NCBI GenBank assembly: GCA_019359155.1
Contig: JAHHHV010000069.1
Location: 62,001 to 126,000 of the forward strand
Length of the DNA stretch: 64,000 nucleotides
Source: Pegethrix bostrychoides GSE-TBD4-15B
GTDB taxonomy: Bacteria > Cyanobacteriota > Cyanobacteriia > Elainellales > Elainellaceae
Direction: 5' to 3'
How positions within the stretch are numbered: the stretch's first letter is position 1; each line of letters opens with the position of its first letter. Below are positions 56,791-64,000 of the stretch, piece by piece. The position numbers and the translations under genes were made by a program. The notes under the pieces are model-generated. The model searched no databases. It saw only the letters and a program-made list of their open reading frames with translations, and was not told the origin of the DNA.

Positions 56791-57498
56791 ATGCGTCAAG
56801 CAGTGATGGGTTTAATTCTGGGTATCTCATTGAGTAGTGGACTGAGCAGTGGACTGAGTAGTGGACTGGCGCTCCCGGCAGCGGCTCAGAACAGCCCGCC
56901 ATCTGCCACCCCAGCACCCAGCTCACCAGCACCCAGCTCACCAGCTCCGCACTTCAAGACGCTGCTGCTGACGGTTGGAGGTTTAGAGCGCCGTGTCACC
57001 TTTCAGCGCTATGAGCGAATTGGCGTTCCGATGACCACCTATTTCCCCGCCACCTATCTCACCGTCAGCAGTGGCTGCACCGAGCGTGGCTGTGGAGTTG
57101 GCTTTTTTGGCCAGCCTAATCAAACCAACAGCACCGAAGGCAACTTTGTCCGATTTTTCTTTCCGCGTCAAGATACAACCGTGGAGCAAATCCGACGCTT
57201 GGCGACGGCAGGAGAGCAAAGCCTGCTGCGCTTAAATCCGGGCTGGACGGTCACTGAAACTCAGGTAGATGGCCTAGAGCAGCCCTGGATGAAAGAGGCA
57301 ACAATCTTTACAACGCCCAGCGGCAGCAAAGGCCGAATTGTGCTGGGTGAGAATGCGGGCAAAGCGTTTGGGTTTTTGGAAGTCTATCAGCAGAGTCAGG
57401 AATCAGAATTTGTACCGCTATTTGCAGCGATCTATGAGAGCTTAGAATTCGTGCCATTGACGCTAGAACTCACGCCTCGCCCAGCCGAGCAAAATTAA
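56791..57498 (+). CDS. Exported protein of unknown function
   Basis: 235 residues from ATG 56791 (AAGGTGGG just upstream). The signal peptide (about 1-32) contains S-S-G-L repeats encoded by a 12-bp unit (56833-56868). It ends ALPAAA-Q and is followed by a Pro/Ser spacer built from a 15-bp repeat (56911-56940). The mature domain (about 60-225) is globular with two cysteines in SGCTERGCG. I do not recognise it. Its 3' end overlaps gvpF by 29 bp, tail to tail, so no further gas-vesicle gene continues on that side. Confidence 0.7.
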   Translation: MRQAVMGLILGISLSSGLSSGLSSGLALPAAAQNSPPSATPAPSSPAPSSPAPHFKTLLLTVGGLERRVTFQRYERIGVPMTTYFPATYLTVSSGCTERGCGVGFFGQPNQTNSTEGNFVRFFFPRQDTTVEQIRRLATAGEQSLLRLNPGWTVTETQVDGLEQPWMKEATIFTTPSGSKGRIVLGENAGKAFGFLEVYQQSQESEFVPLFAAIYESLEFVPLTLELTPRPAEQN

Positions 57499-58207
57499 AC
57501 GGAGCCGTAAAGCTGTTGTAGCGAATCCGCAGACGGCCATCAAACTGCTGGTCTAGAGCCTCCACAGCCCGCCCAAGCTGTGGCTCTGACTCCCAGTCAA
57601 TCAAATAGGCCGCGTTGTAGATCATTGCCTCGCTGAGCGGATCGTTCTCGACGCGCTCCACAGACAGCGAATTCAGCGCAGCTCGAAAAGTCTCAATCAC
57701 CCGCTGCTGGCGCTGCTGCATCTCACGCTCAATTGCCTGACCAATCTGGATGATTTGCTCCATGCCTAGCGACTTGCCCTCTAGCTGATCGCGCCTAGCG
57801 CGCAGAGCAGTGTTCTCCTGCATCAGCAATGCTAGCTCCTGCTCTGCATCCCAAAATACCTTTACGCCCACCTCGCGCCGTCCCTCTAACTTAGCAAGTA
57901 GCTGCTTGAGTTGCTCACCGCGCGGCAGAATCAGCTGCTGCTCCACGTTTGTCCAGTCGCTAATTGTCATGCCAAACTGAAGCGGCAGCAATGCGCGATA
58001 GCCTTGTTCCATTGCCTGCTCTAACACTCGCTCATGTCCGAGCAGATTGCGGCGGCTGGCTAGATAGCGTTCCTGCTGAGCCTCTGAATAGAGGAACGTA
58101 AAGCCGCCAACTTCGCGGGTTTGCACGGGCTGCTGATCCAAGCCTGCAAAGTCTAACGCTGGAGCAGAGGCGGGGAGAATACCGTAGAGATAGAGATGAG
58201 AAGACAT
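57470..58207 (-). CDS. gvpF: Gas vesicle protein GvpF (GvpF/GvpL family)
   Basis: 245 residues with the GvpF/L pattern: YLYGILP at the start, GGFTFLYSE, LLGHERVLEQAMEQGYRALLPLQFGM, GVKVFWD and a C-terminal AYLIDWESE..., LRIRYNSFTAPFNFA. GvpF is a minor protein that contacts GvpA and helps start vesicle assembly. Last gene of the leftward run, 47 bp after gvpK. No gvpG, gvpV or gvpW follows. Confidence 0.95.
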   Translation of the reverse strand: MSSHLYLYGILPASAPALDFAGLDQQPVQTREVGGFTFLYSEAQQERYLASRRNLLGHERVLEQAMEQGYRALLPLQFGMTISDWTNVEQQLILPRGEQLKQLLAKLEGRREVGVKVFWDAEQELALLMQENTALRARRDQLEGKSLGMEQIIQIGQAIEREMQQRQQRVIETFRAALNSLSVERVENDPLSEAMIYNAAYLIDWESEPQLGRAVEALDQQFDGRLRIRYNSFTAPFNFARLGEA

Positions 58208-58254
58208 GGCTTAATGACCCAATTGGGGATATTTATCTGAATTTATCGAGCAAC

Positions 58255-58737
58255 CTAGACCGGCTGTGAAGTTAGCACCAGTTGCAGCTTGGCGTGAATC
58301 AAATTGATCTGCGCCAGTCCCAAATCCAGCTCGCCTTGTAGCACAACGCCCGTATGCAGCAGGCGATCGAGCAGCTCCAAGATTGAAGGGCTGGCAGACT
58401 TCTGACCTGGATAATAGCCGTTGCCTGGCAAGAGCGTACCTATTTCGCCCAGATTGATATTCAGATCAGCTGGATCGACCTCAAAAACCTTGCAGAGCTG
58501 CACGACCTGCTCTTCCAGTTTGCGGAGGCTATCTGAAGCGCGATCCAAATCTGCTTCGCTCAGCTGTTCGGATTCCATGCGGCGAATCACCTGCGCCTCC
58601 ATCAGCTGACGAATCAGCTCAATTACAGTCAGCAACAGGGTTGCGAGTCCGGCCTGTGATTTTTGCGACGATTTTTGCGGCGCTTCTGAAAAATTAAGAT
58701 CACTAGCAGGGGCGACTTGAAGCGATGTAGGGTTCAT
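58255..58737 (-). CDS. gvpK: Gas vesicle protein GvpK
   Basis: 160 residues. The GvpK core (about 29-105) has GLATLLLTVIELIRQLMEAQVIRRME, LRKLEEQVVQLCKVF, and DPADLNINLGEIGTLLP. The last 45 residues (SILELLDRLLHTGVVLQGELDLGLAQINLIHAKLQLVLTS) resemble GvpA/J, which I believe is normal for cyanobacterial GvpK. Needed for vesicle formation; exact role unclear. Spacing 41 bp from gvpJ. Confidence 0.95.
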   Translation of the reverse strand: MNPTSLQVAPASDLNFSEAPQKSSQKSQAGLATLLLTVIELIRQLMEAQVIRRMESEQLSEADLDRASDSLRKLEEQVVQLCKVFEVDPADLNINLGEIGTLLPGNGYYPGQKSASPSILELLDRLLHTGVVLQGELDLGLAQINLIHAKLQLVLTSQPV

Positions 58738-58778
58738 AGTTTCTGAATAGGGCGAGGGGCTATTTCGGGAGCTGAAAC

Positions 58779-59156
58779 TTAGACGGGGCTGGCAGATTTA
58801 AGCGATTGCAGCTCGGTTTCGAGAGAGCCGAGTCGAGCTTGTAGCTGCTGGTTAGTTTCGAGTAGCTGCTGATTAGCTTCGAGCAGCTGGCGGCCTTGTC
58901 CACTCAAATAGGGATCTCCTTCCCACCAGTTAATGCCCATTTCTCTGGCTTTATCGACCGAAGCCACCAGCAGCCGAATCCGAATGCTCAACAGCTCAGT
59001 TGCGCCCACGGAGACAGAAATATCGCCAGCAATCACGATACCTTTGTCGAGCACGCGCTCTAGCACATCTGCCAGTGATGAGCTGTTTGCAGCAGTTTGC
59101 ATCGGTCGGTTTTGGGCTTGAGCGGGCATGGTCTGGGGGGGCATAGAAAAAGTCAT
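58779..59156 (-). CDS. gvpJ: Gas vesicle protein GvpJ (GvpA-like)
   Basis: 125 residues. Residues about 25-75 are GvpA-like (SLADVLERVLDKGIVIAGDISVSVGATELLSIRIRLLVASVDKA). A C-terminal coiled coil of L-L-E-A/T-N-Q-Q-L repeats marks it as GvpJ rather than the shell protein. It is a minor nucleation component. Four bases separate it from gvpN, implying translational coupling. Confidence 0.94.
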   Translation of the reverse strand: MTFSMPPQTMPAQAQNRPMQTAANSSSLADVLERVLDKGIVIAGDISVSVGATELLSIRIRLLVASVDKAREMGINWWEGDPYLSGQGRQLLEANQQLLETNQQLQARLGSLETELQSLKSASPV

Positions 59157-59160
59157 GAAT

Positions 59161-60264
59161 TTATTCCTGTAGGGTAGCTTGGGGGATTGCTAGGGATGGC
59201 GCCGGGAAAATAATTTGGGGAATCGCTGAGGAGATCACGGGTTCAGGTTCGTCAGCTGCATCGCTTTCTGCGGCCAGCCACTCATCCAGCGGATCAGCTG
59301 CTTCAGCGGACGCAGCCTCAGATGCCGGAATCACTCTCACCTGAGGCGCAGAGGCCACGACCTCTTGCTGCATGGCATGGGCGGTAATCAGCGCGTTGAA
59401 AACTTCCCAGAGAATCTGAGTGGACTCGCCGAGCGGTAAGCTGGAGCGCGACAGCAAAATATCCTGGCACATATCTCGAAACTCAGGATTTTCAGGCATC
59501 GCCAAAATATCGTGCTCCTGGCAGACCTTGGCCAAGATTAAGCAGGAGCGCAGTCCAGAAGATTTCTCGGCCTGGATTCGCTGCCGGAAGTTCCTCACGG
59601 TTTCAACGATAATGGCAGCACTTTCGCGGTCGATTGCGGTTTTTTGGATGATGATTTCTTGCTGAGTTAGCTCGTCAGGTTCGGGGACATTGATTGTGAC
59701 GAGTCGGTCGAGCAGCGCGTCTTGGGTGGAATGCACGCCGCAGTATTCTTCGGGATTGGAGGTGAGAATTGCCCGGAACTTCGGATTCACCCGCACATAC
59801 TCGTTGCGGTTACTGCTGGGCGGCAAAACCAATAGCTTCTCTTCTAAGACTGAGAGCAGTACGTTGTTGACTTCCGGACGAGAGCGATTGAACTCATCGT
59901 AGATTAGCGTAAATCCTTCCCGGCAGGCCAGTGTCAACCGTGAGTCCATCCAGTTGTGCCGCAGCTCATCTTCAACCTTCACAACGCTGTGGATGTAGTT
60001 GTCTACAACTTTTTTGCGCGTATATCCCGTTTGATTCCCGATCAAGTCAGAGGTCTTATAGTCATCGTCCCCGTAGAGCAGCATCATTGGCTGGGTAAGC
60101 AGATCGGCCAGATGCAGTGCCAGCGTAGTTTTTCCGGTTCCGGCAGGGCCGCGCAGATGCACAGAAAAGCCGGATTGTAGATAGCGATAGGCTCGGTTAA
60201 CCACGCGCTCGATTGCGGGTGTACTGACAAAGCGTCGGGGGCTGACCTTCAAAACAGTAGTCAC
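59161..60264 (-). CDS. gvpN: Gas vesicle AAA+ ATPase GvpN
   Basis: 367 residues. MoxR-like AAA+ core with Walker A GPAGTGKT (about 39-46), the GvpN motif [16 protein letters not shown], Walker [18 protein letters not shown] and sensor [11 protein letters not shown], followed by [10 protein letters not shown]. The last 70 residues are an acidic, Pro/Ala-rich tail longer than usual. GvpN powers growth of cone-shaped vesicles into cylinders. 14 bp separate it from gvpC. Confidence 0.96.
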
Positions 60265-60278
60265 GGGCTTATATCCTC

Positions 60279-61184
60279 TTAAGTCAAGTCTTGGATCAAG
60301 TAAATTCGATCGCGCTGGGTAACATAGCCTTTGCGGATCAGGCTGCGTAGGGCATCCACCGTCTGGAAGCGATTCAGCGCTAGAGCTGCTTCAATTTCAG
60401 TCAGCGTCGCGCCCTGCGTTTCATGCAGGTAGGTATAGACTGCTTCTGCGAGGATGGAGGTGGGCGGCAGCACCTCTGCTTCAGGGGATGCTGTGCCGAA
60501 TGCTGTACTGGATGCTGTGCCGGATGTTGTGCCGGATGCTGTACTGGGCGGCACAATGCGCACCGTTGGCGCTGCCATATCGTGAGTAGCTTCAGCTGGA
60601 GCCGTTTCTAGTTCCTCTAATTCCGGGGATGCTGTGGGTTCACTCACGGATAGATTAACTGGAGCCGCATCGTTGCCCCAAACATACTGATGCAGTTCAG
60701 CACAGTAGCGGCGTAGCTCAGCCCGGAACTCAACGAGCTGCTCAAAGAATTCGGCCACTTCAGCGCTGCGGCGAGTTCTGTCATCTCGCAGCATCTGGCG
60801 CAGGACTGGAGCCTGCTGTTGCCGAATTTCGCTAAATTCAACGAGCTGCTGCTGCACCTCAGCCTGAAGGCTCTCAACGTAGAGCGCTAGCTCCTGCATT
60901 AGCTGAATCTGATTTTGGAGGCGAGTTTGTTGATGAGCCTGTAGCTCTGCCTGTACCTCTGTACGGCGCTGCAAAATTTCCGCCTGCATCTCTTGGCGCA
61001 GTAATGCCACATCAGCCCTCAGCTGCGAATGAAACGCGGTCAAATCCTGCCGTAGCTCAATCGCCTGTACCTGCCGAGCATGCTTAAGCTGTTCTAAAGT
61101 CGCCTGCACCTGCTGCTGGCGCTGAATCACCTCTTGCTGGCGCTGCTGCCGCTGTTCTTGCCAAGTCTGCTTGAGAGAAACCAC
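60279..61184 (-). CDS. gvpC: Gas vesicle shell-strengthening protein GvpC with an added C-terminal winged-helix domain
   Basis: 301 residues. Residues 1-170 are Gln/Glu/Arg-rich helix with degenerate repeats of about 33 residues (A-E-L-Q-A-H-Q-Q-T..., [17 protein letters not shown]) as in GvpC, which clamps the outside of the GvpA shell. A linker (171-240) includes S-G-T-A units encoded by five 12-bp repeats (60487-60546). Residues 241-301 ([22 protein letters not shown]..., [21 protein letters not shown]) look like a winged helix. Position between gvpA and gvpN matches the standard order A-C-N. The tail is not part of GvpC as I know it. Confidence 0.82.
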
Positions 61185-61350
61185 TGAAATTCTCCTAAAA
61201 CCAAATCCAGAATATCAATCCAAACCACCAACCCAAACCACCAACCCAAAACGCTATCAGTCAGAATGCCAAATAAGCTGAGGGTAAGAGGGGCGGCGCG
61301 CAGGAGCCTTCTCGCCCTCCTCGCCCTCAGTGCCAATACTCTGAATCAAC

Positions 61351-61569
61351 TTAAGCCGCAGGAACGGCAGCCTGAGAGGTCAGACCCACTGCTTCGGCAT
61401 ACTTCAGGTAGGTCTCGACTGAAGCAATCACGACGCGCGCTTCGATGGAGAGCAGTTCAATCCCGACGAGCGAGACGCGAACCCAAGCGTCAATGACAAT
61501 CCCTTTGTCCAAGATGCGGTCAACAACTTCAGCCAAGCTAGAAGAAGAGTTCACTTTTTCGACAGCCAT
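61351..61569 (-). CDS. gvpA: Gas vesicle structural protein GvpA
   Basis: 72 residues, the classic shell protein ([53 protein letters not shown]). It packs into ribs that form the gas-permeable wall. AGGTGA lies 6 nt before the ATG. There is one copy here, whereas some species carry tandem gvpA genes. The 166-bp gap before gvpC has GC-rich inverted segments that may form an attenuating hairpin, and a direct repeat of AAACCACCAACCC (61224-61250 region). Confidence 0.98.
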
Positions 61570-62030
61570 GTTAAATCACCTAATTTGTGTAGTTTGCGTT
61601 CAGGAAGTAGATCAGCCCCAATTCTTGCCGATCTCATCTGATGATTTCGGCTTGAGCGCTTCTAGCAGCATAGGTACTTGAGAATCTGCGTGAGACAGCG
61701 TAAATGCGGAATTCTTTGGGTTGAAAACTGGCATCTACAGGAAAGTACGGAACTGCTGTAGCCCTCTATTGAATTGAGGCATGTTTCGAGTCAGAATCAC
61801 ACCGAGAGCAAATCAACCATTCCTTGAAGAATCAAGCTTGGATATTGCATCACTCTTTGGAGATATATCAAGATTTCCCGCTATCTATATACCACTAACA
61901 GATTCGTAAATTATTCCTTAGTACTCACTTTAAATTATTTTTTTTGGCTATATGTGAAAAGCAAATATCCCCGCAGTCGATAGTCCACAGGGATAAAAAA
62001 AGCGATATAAGATTTGCCGATCATCCAAAC
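61570..62030. promoter_or_regulatory. Leader/promoter region of the gas-vesicle operon
   Basis: 461 bp between the CDC48-like gene and gvpA. The left two-thirds are of ordinary composition; about 61860-61960 is strongly AT-rich. Near 61967-61995 a weak stem (TATCCC/GGGATA) could end the upstream transcript. The actual gvpA promoter could not be fixed by eye. No open frame of note. Confidence 0.5.
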
Positions 62031-63893
62031 CTAGAGATCCGTCGATACTTCGCGGGCAGAACGCTGGCTGGCTAGGAGCTGATGCGCGATGGCAAAATCG
62101 GCCATTGTGATCTGGATGGCGGCATCAGGGGAAGGTTGAGCGCGATATTTACGGATCGCCTCCAGAGCCGCCTGATTGCTCAGCAGCGCCAGATCGGCTC
62201 CGTTCCAGCCTGCGGTTTGGCTAGCCCAGAGACTTAGATCTACGGCTGCTAGAGGCCGATCGCGATTGTGGACTTGCAGAATCGACAGGCGGCTGGCTTG
62301 GTCAGGCAGATCGATTTTGAGCTGAAGGTCGAGCCGTCCGGCGCGAAGCAGCGCTGGGTCGAGCGCGTCAGGCCGATTAGTCGCTCCAATTAGCAGCACG
62401 TTAGGACAGGCTTGCAGACCGTCAAGTTCGGTTAAGAGCTGCCCCACTACCCGGTCGCTGACCCCCGAATCGCCCTGAAATTGGCCGCGTGCGGGAGCAA
62501 GCGTGTCAATTTCATCCACAAAGATGACGCAGGGAGCTGCCTGTCTAGCTTTAGCAAACAGCTCGCGCATAGCTTGCTCAGCTGCTCCCACCCAGCGACT
62601 CAACAGCTCGGGGCCATTTACCGCGATAAAATTGGCGCGAGCCTGAGAGGCAACCGCTTTGGCTAGCAGCGTTTTGCCTGTGCCCGGTGGCCCCCAAAGC
62701 AGAATGCCGCGCGGGGCTTTGGCTCCGGTTTGCTGATAGAGTTCTGGGTAGAGCAGAGCGCCTTCGACCGATTCTTGCAGCGTTTGCTTCGCGGCTGCCA
62801 GTCCGCCGATCTCCGCCCAGTCTGTCTGGGGAGATTCGACTTCGACTGAGCGCAGCACCGAGGGCTTGATTGCCTTGATTGCCTGCAAAAAGTCGGCTTG
62901 CGTAATGCTCATCTCGGCAGGTACTTCAGCTTGCAGGTCAGGAACCTGTCGCCGCAGGGCAATGTAGGCCGCCTGCTGACAGACTGCCCTTAGATCGGCT
63001 CCCACTAGCCCCACCGCCAGATCGGCAATTATCGCCAGATCAACTGTCCGATCGAGCGGCATCGAGCGGGTTTGAATCTGAAGGATTTCCAGGCGACCCT
63101 CGCGGTCGGGGACGCGGAACTGCACCTCGCGGTCGAGCCGCCCAGGACGACGCAGTGCCGGATCGAGGTGGTCAGGTCGATTGGTGGCAGCTAACACAAT
63201 CACGCCGTTGGTTGGGGCGAAGCCGTCCATCAGGCTCAAGAGCTGGGCGACTAGACGTTTCTCGACCTCGCCCTCGACTTTGGCGCGATCGGGGGCAAGG
63301 CTGTCAATCTCGTCAATAAATATGATGCAGGGGGCCGAGCGAGCCGCTCTCTCAAAAATATCGCGTAGGCGGGCTTCGGCTTCGCCATAATACTTGCCCA
63401 TGACTTCAGGGCCGACAATCGCAATGTGGTTCACGCCTAGCGCTTCGGCCAGCGCACGGGCAGTCAGAGTCTTGCCCGTGCCGGGTGGCCCGACTAGCAG
63501 CACGCCCTTAGAGGGTTCTAGCCCCAGCTTGTCGAGCAGTTCGGGACGCTTCAGCGGAATTTCGATTAGCTCGCGCAGCTCTTGCAAGACAGACGACAGC
63601 CCGCCCAAATCGCGCAGCGAGACTGGAGCCGCGCCATCTGAACTGCCGTTGGCAGGTGGGGGACTCTCTGGACGAGGCGATGTTGGGTTGGGGCGCATCC
63701 GGCTAGTGCCGACATGGCTGCTAGCGGCGCTGCTAGCGGTACTGCTGCGGGGCACGCTCCCCTGACGCGGAATGCTGCTGAGCGGACGAGCGTTAATGTG
63801 AATATCGGTCTTCAGCTCTCCCTGTTCGATTTTGTCTTCTAGAGCTTTAGCTAACTCCAGCAGTTGCTCAAATCCTCGAAATAGCTCGCTCAT
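62031..63893 (-). CDS. CDC48/p97-like protein with two AAA domains
   Basis: 620 residues. A helical N-terminus (FEQLLELAKALEDKIEQGELKTDI) and a Ser/Pro-rich linker precede AAA-1 (Walker A GPPGTGKT at 135-142, Walker B IIFIDEID, NRPDHLDPALRRPGRLDRE) and AAA-2 (second GPPGTGKT at about 405, VIFVDEIDTLAP, NRPDALDPALLRAGRLD). Both sites look active. The usual p97 N-domain is missing. Such ATPases unfold or extract proteins. It lies directly upstream of gvpA on the same strand. Similar AAA genes are, to my knowledge, found near gas-vesicle clusters of other bacteria, so a role in vesicle assembly or turnover is a fair inference. The first 40 residues loosely recall helical parts of GvpH. Confidence 0.9.
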   Translation of the reverse strand: MSELFRGFEQLLELAKALEDKIEQGELKTDIHINARPLSSIPRQGSVPRSSTASSAASSHVGTSRMRPNPTSPRPESPPPANGSSDGAAPVSLRDLGGLSSVLQELRELIEIPLKRPELLDKLGLEPSKGVLLVGPPGTGKTLTARALAEALGVNHIAIVGPEVMGKYYGEAEARLRDIFERAARSAPCIIFIDEIDSLAPDRAKVEGEVEKRLVAQLLSLMDGFAPTNGVIVLAATNRPDHLDPALRRPGRLDREVQFRVPDREGRLEILQIQTRSMPLDRTVDLAIIADLAVGLVGADLRAVCQQAAYIALRRQVPDLQAEVPAEMSITQADFLQAIKAIKPSVLRSVEVESPQTDWAEIGGLAAAKQTLQESVEGALLYPELYQQTGAKAPRGILLWGPPGTGKTLLAKAVASQARANFIAVNGPELLSRWVGAAEQAMRELFAKARQAAPCVIFVDEIDTLAPARGQFQGDSGVSDRVVGQLLTELDGLQACPNVLLIGATNRPDALDPALLRAGRLDLQLKIDLPDQASRLSILQVHNRDRPLAAVDLSLWASQTAGWNGADLALLSNQAALEAIRKYRAQPSPDAAIQITMADFAIAHQLLASQRSAREVSTDL

Positions 63894-64000
63894 AGGTTTG
63901 ATAATGAATCGCCGAATCTGGCTTTAGTTATCCCAAGTTTGATGCTATCCTCGCAGTGGTCTGGAAAATAGCCGAAAAAAATAGCCGAATGTTTAGATTG

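Follow-up and report, generated by a model that had tools for sequence, protein, structure and literature searches.

A predicted winged-helix tail on the gas-vesicle proteins GvpC and GvpN of cyanobacteria, a possible docking domain

In a 64,000-nt stretch of DNA from Pegethrix bostrychoides GSE-TBD4-15B (the window), one gene encodes a gas-vesicle protein GvpC that continues, beyond its helical body and a variable linker, into about 60 further residues. This raises three questions: what the tail is, whether it is peculiar to this genome and what it might do on a gas vesicle. A preliminary description, based on the DNA alone, had read the tail as a winged-helix (wHTH) domain without any described example, and had suggested that it could bind a partner protein or nucleic acid, or link vesicle number to gene control.

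The gvp locus and the parts of GvpC

The minus strand of the window presents the gene order gvpA-C-N-J-K-F between positions 57470 and 61569 (Table 1). We did not see gvpG, gvpV or gvpW beside gvpF within positions 57400-64000. The profile of the 33-residue GvpC repeat (PF01304) gave no match to the GvpC of the window, nor did it give any in 14 control genomes. The identity of the protein therefore rests on gene order, its gene lying between gvpA and gvpN in the gvp cluster, and on clear homology to other GvpC proteins. In the body of the protein, lag 33 scores z=2.7 and lag 66 z=2.5, with higher scores at lags 51, 58 and 40. A type of GvpC with divergent repeats is known from Planktothrix (PMC5259702). 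Searching the PDB with the full GvpC (phmmer) returned coiled-coil and low-complexity noise only.

The coordinates of the open reading frame and its division into a helical body, a variable linker and a domain proved correct as first described. The rod, residues 1-170, is a helix rich in Q, E and R that ends at the same point where canonical tail-less GvpC proteins stop (e.g. ...LRQFRQDLFVSIFG). In an alignment of the GvpC proteins of the order, the linker has a majority-residue frequency of 0.20-0.24 for most of its length, the exception being the patch PTVRIVP. A close match to this patch was found only in the window's genus, and its likeness to the motif APQVRVIP of GvpN may be more than coincidence. 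The linker is followed by a compact conserved domain (residues 243-299).

Two further genes of the locus show features of their own. The C-terminus of GvpK (58255-58737, minus strand) is GvpA-like (PF00741, E 9e-14, residues 118-156), and weak similarity to GvpJ/GvpA is also present in GvpK of most related loci. A double-AAA ATPase resembling Cdc48/p97 (62031-63893, minus strand) adjoins the gvp cluster; many related genomes also have homologues of it close to their gvp clusters, and it is possibly a conserved gas-vesicle partner.

Table 1. Positions in the window of the gvp genes and of the parts of GvpC and GvpN
Feature	Position	Strand	Basis or remark
gvpA, shell protein	61351..61569	-	profile matches and gene order
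gvpC, 301 aa, GTG start	60279..61184	-	between gvpA and gvpN; homologues across the order
Putative helical vesicle-binding rod, GvpC residues 1-170	60675..61184	-	ends in the canonical GvpC C-terminal motif
Variable low-complexity linker, GvpC residues 171-242	60459..60674	-	majority-residue frequency, many gaps
PTVRIVP patch in linker, GvpC residues 206-212	60549..60569	-	resembles GvpN APQVRVIP motif
Predicted winged-helix tail, GvpC residues 243-301	60282..60458	-	Pfam profiles, model, structure matches, conservation
Predicted third helix (recognition-helix position), residues 273-284	60333..60368	-	modelled secondary structure; conserved R/Q/D/R pattern
Predicted beta hairpin without wing loop, residues 288-296	60297..60323	-	model and tail alignment
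gvpN, AAA+ ATPase, without winged-helix tail	59161..60264	-	profile matches and locus comparison
APQVRVIP motif in C-terminal extension of GvpN, in the place of the winged-helix tail	59326..59349	-	comparison of GvpN C-termini
gvpJ	58779..59156	-	profile match
gvpK with GvpA-like C-terminal segment	58255..58737	-	profile match
gvpF	57470..58207	-	profile match

Fold, conservation and distribution of the tail

Sequence profiles and a structure model agree on the fold of the tail, which can therefore be assigned with confidence: the tail is very probably a winged helix, and the preliminary reading is borne out by profiles of the TrmB, MarR and IclR families as well as by the predicted model. When the tail of the window was searched alone against Pfam, it matched TrmB (E=7e-5) and also IclR and HTH_27, just under the cut-offs. 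TrmB was matched by 21 of the 24 homologous GvpC tails (best 2.5e-6). Among homologous tails found on GvpN, 12/13 matched TrmB (best 2.2e-7) and 10/13 matched MarR_2, and an independent genome scan placed one GvpN tail over the TrmB cut-off. The AlphaFold2 model of residues 243-301, built on an alignment of two sequences (the window and one relative, L001), has the winged-helix topology helix-helix-helix-strand-strand with a pLDDT of 67.8. The model was improved by trimming to these residues, as keeping linker residues gave a poor one (pLDDT 52.6) with no useful match. Almost every PDB match of the trimmed model (Foldseek, VIA-align) is a winged-helix protein; Z reaches 8.0, 463 of the 998 chains have Z >= 5, and no Foldseek E-value for this model was below 0.001.

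Within the order, no segment of GvpC is more conserved than the core of the tail, whose majority-residue frequency is 0.78, compared with 0.52-0.63 in the rod; this is therefore not a chance open reading frame. We identified a GvpC match in 29 of the 36 genomes of the order. Among the 28 GvpC ends that could be read, 25 carry the tail in frame, one carries it intact but out of frame (G004) and two lack it (G029 and G015), so that, G004 included, the tail is present at 26 of 28 informative loci. It is thus ordinary within its lineage, being standard in the GvpC of related species, and not an oddity of this genome. In G004 (L059:4826-6078), the body and the tail of GvpC are encoded in different frames, due to a frameshift in the linker that is either real or an assembly error.

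We also surveyed a phylum-wide sample of 386 genomes, 56 of which possess GvpN. Of these GvpN-bearing genomes, 19 present the tail on GvpC and 26 present it on GvpC or GvpN. Across the 386 genomes the domain subfamily is confined to these two proteins, bar weak matches in one picocyanobacterial family (f31, 126-180 aa); we rejected the latter as relatives, since they resemble DtxR/MntR-type regulators and fall outside the clade of GvpC/GvpN tails. A search of viral contigs found no relative of the tail. The tail has been lost several times, in planktic-type Planktothrix, in Nostocaceae and in Microcystis-like clusters. Such losses would fit a reading of the tail as a functionless, neutral remnant of an old fusion. 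This reading is contradicted by the conservation of the tail, which is the best conserved part of GvpC across the order while the preceding linker is free to drift, and we consider it very improbable.

Other GvpC ends were met in the same survey. Two proteins in the position of GvpC (L147:8583-9608 and L149:6153-7115; families f25 and f26) possess another conserved helical C-terminal segment, ...VRDLLA.GA..L..DPS.IL.TL..M..., which represents a second kind of GvpC tail. One genome (G296) holds two gvp clusters, one with a tailed GvpC and the other with a classical short GvpC (L156 and L157). GvpN of the short-GvpC cluster groups with the Microcystis-like family f5, and this points to horizontal transfer.

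A homologous tail on GvpN and the candidate role of the domain

A homologous C-terminal tail is found on GvpN, the AAA+ assembly ATPase, in 38 of 75 GvpN rows. In our tree, the tails of GvpC and GvpN fall together in a single family, apart from a picocyanobacterial winged-helix outgroup, with strong clustering by C and N label. This topology would fit a single old duplication within the operon, the tree being built on 61 columns, too few to settle the matter. The tail on GvpC and the tail on GvpN are associated (odds ratio 6.7, p 2e-4, uncorrected for phylogeny). Each of them also occurs alone, that of GvpC in about 12 clusters and that of GvpN in 9. We therefore rejected an obligatory pairing of the two tails: neither requires the other, which excludes a strict GvpC-GvpN tail pair. 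GvpN of the window presents in place of the tail an acidic C-terminal extension with the motif APQxR(V/I)IP. Among the GvpN proteins of the order (L033-L062), this motif was found in 11/12 of those without a tail and in 0/13 of those with one (p 3e-6, uncorrected for phylogeny); the winged-helix tail and the motif-bearing extension never occur together on GvpN in the order.

That GvpN of many relatives carries a copy of the tail suggests a docking module rather than a gene regulator. We propose that the tail may be a winged-helix protein-docking domain on the vesicle surface, to which GvpN foremost would dock, a reading to which we give roughly an even chance. The rod of GvpC would bind along the ribs of the vesicle, as in Anabaena, where GvpC rods lie along the ribs and are arranged end to end (PMC10185304). 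Because the rods lie along the ribs, a tail attached by a flexible linker would project outward from the vesicle surface, and the tail of the GvpC of the window would likely be exposed in the same way. The projecting tail would then dock a gas-vesicle assembly factor, most likely GvpN first, and this contact would couple shell growth with coating by GvpC. At its own C-terminus, GvpN has a homologous tail in many cases, and in others, the GvpN of the window included, the acidic APQxR(V/I)IP extension.

By analogy, docking, whether between GvpC and GvpN or between GvpC molecules, is the best-supported mechanism because the C-terminal domain of Halobacterium GvpC binds GvpN and associates with itself. 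In Halobacterium salinarum, the part of GvpC that binds GvpN and GvpO is its globular C-terminal domain, whereas the N-terminal repeats do not bind them, and an interaction of a C-terminal fragment with GvpC was seen as well (PMC9372576). In the cyanobacterial data, docking is favored by the fold (from profiles and model), by the top conservation of the tail within GvpC, by its restriction to GvpC and GvpN (bar the weak f31 matches), by the common family that the tails of both proteins form, by the association of the two tails across clusters and by its near-neutral surface without a wing. Against docking, each tail also occurs without the other, planktonic Anabaena/Microcystis-type clusters lack the GvpC tail, and one Planktothrix strain with tailed GvpC and one with short GvpC did not differ in the abundance and size of their aerotopes (PMC5259702). 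A more specific scenario, which we hold only tentatively, is that one winged-helix module was duplicated in the gvp operon onto GvpC and GvpN to form a homotypic docking pair linking the motor to the growing coat, and that the copy of the motor was exchanged for a peptide motif in some lineages.

Winged-helix domains often dimerise. Alternatively, then, the tail could be a self-association domain, with dimerising tails of adjacent GvpC molecules locking the rods end to end, or those of adjacent vesicles bundling them into aerotopes. The interaction of the Halobacterium C-terminal fragment with GvpC (PMC9372576) is in line with this alternative, as are the abundance and end-to-end arrangement of GvpC on the ribs (PMC10185304) and the retention of the GvpC tail in 12 clusters whose GvpN has none. 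However, self-association alone leaves unexplained why the same domain is found on a scarce ATPase, and aerotopes are also formed by species without the tail; we regard it as rather unlikely.

The tail might instead bind DNA or RNA, tying vesicles to the nucleoid or to the control of gvp expression. The nearest profile families, TrmB, MarR and IclR, are indeed DNA-binding regulators, and Arg residues are conserved in the third helix and the hairpin of the tail. However, the tail core has a mean net charge of 0.4 (42 tails), whereas 16 MarR/TrmB-type control matches average 2.1 per 45 aa, with wide overlap between the two; an acidic residue (D/E) is conserved in the third helix of 41/42 GvpC tails; and all 42 GvpC tails lack the wing loop, with no insertion in the hairpin. 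In addition, a coat protein present at hundreds of copies per vesicle would be an unlikely regulator. We searched upstream of gvpA at tailed loci for a palindromic operator of the operon itself, using exact dyads with half-sites of 4-6 bases: apart from GCGA/TCGC, none was common to these loci more often than in shuffled sequences. With a near-neutral core, no wing loop and no other shared dyad, the suggested link to gene control finds no support. Beyond the fold, nothing supports binding of nucleic acid by the tail, which we deem improbable. What stands of the preliminary reading is that the tail is a predicted winged helix and probably a binding module at the vesicle surface.

Relation to known systems

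The statement that no example of such a tail had been described holds in part. In non-planktic Planktothrix, a GvpC of about 40 kDa (GvpC40) has a conserved 60-residue C-terminal extension, which resembles 60 residues of GvpC from Geitlerinema sp. PCC 7407 and contains a stretch of 28 residues that is 64% identical to GvpN (PMC5259702). The extension and its similarity to GvpN were thus noted in 2017, but that account is limited to the similarity, without a winged helix, a survey or a mechanism (PMC5259702). We found no literature match joining GvpC with "winged helix" in a search covering few subscription journals. New here are the fold assignment and the survey, together with the findings that GvpC and GvpN share the tail in general and that GvpN has an alternative extension. 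The laboratory models stem from lineages that lost the tail, planktic-type Planktothrix and Anabaena/Microcystis-type clusters, which would explain why it was overlooked. Since the domain is common to the assembly motor GvpN, the finding is slightly more interesting than first stated. A domain common to coat protein and motor offers a concrete contact site for testing how GvpN meets the shell, and gas-vesicle engineering could use the tail as a natural handle for attachment.

Protein sizes agree with the Planktothrix forms. The tailed GvpC proteins of G191 and G296 (39.9 and 39.6 kDa) fit GvpC40, whereas those of G289 (28.6 and 20.4 kDa), which have no tail, fit the planktic forms. GvpC of Halobacterium salinarum also consists of a helical body followed by a globular C-terminal domain, which binds GvpN (PMC9372576). 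This haloarchaeal domain includes a zinc-finger motif and not a winged helix, and we liken the two by position and architecture. GvpC of Anabaena flos-aquae, with its 33-residue repeats (PF01304), is encoded at the same place after gvpA and before gvpN, and it shares with the GvpC of the window an amphipathic helical body and a similar last body motif, FRQDLF.S..G. In contrast, it has neither linker nor tail, and PF01304 does not match the window protein. Relative to the winged-helix domains of TrmB, MarR and IclR, the GvpC tail presents the same predicted fold and the same pattern of hydrophobic core residues, but it lacks the wing loop, has a near-neutral surface and is joined to a vesicle coat protein.
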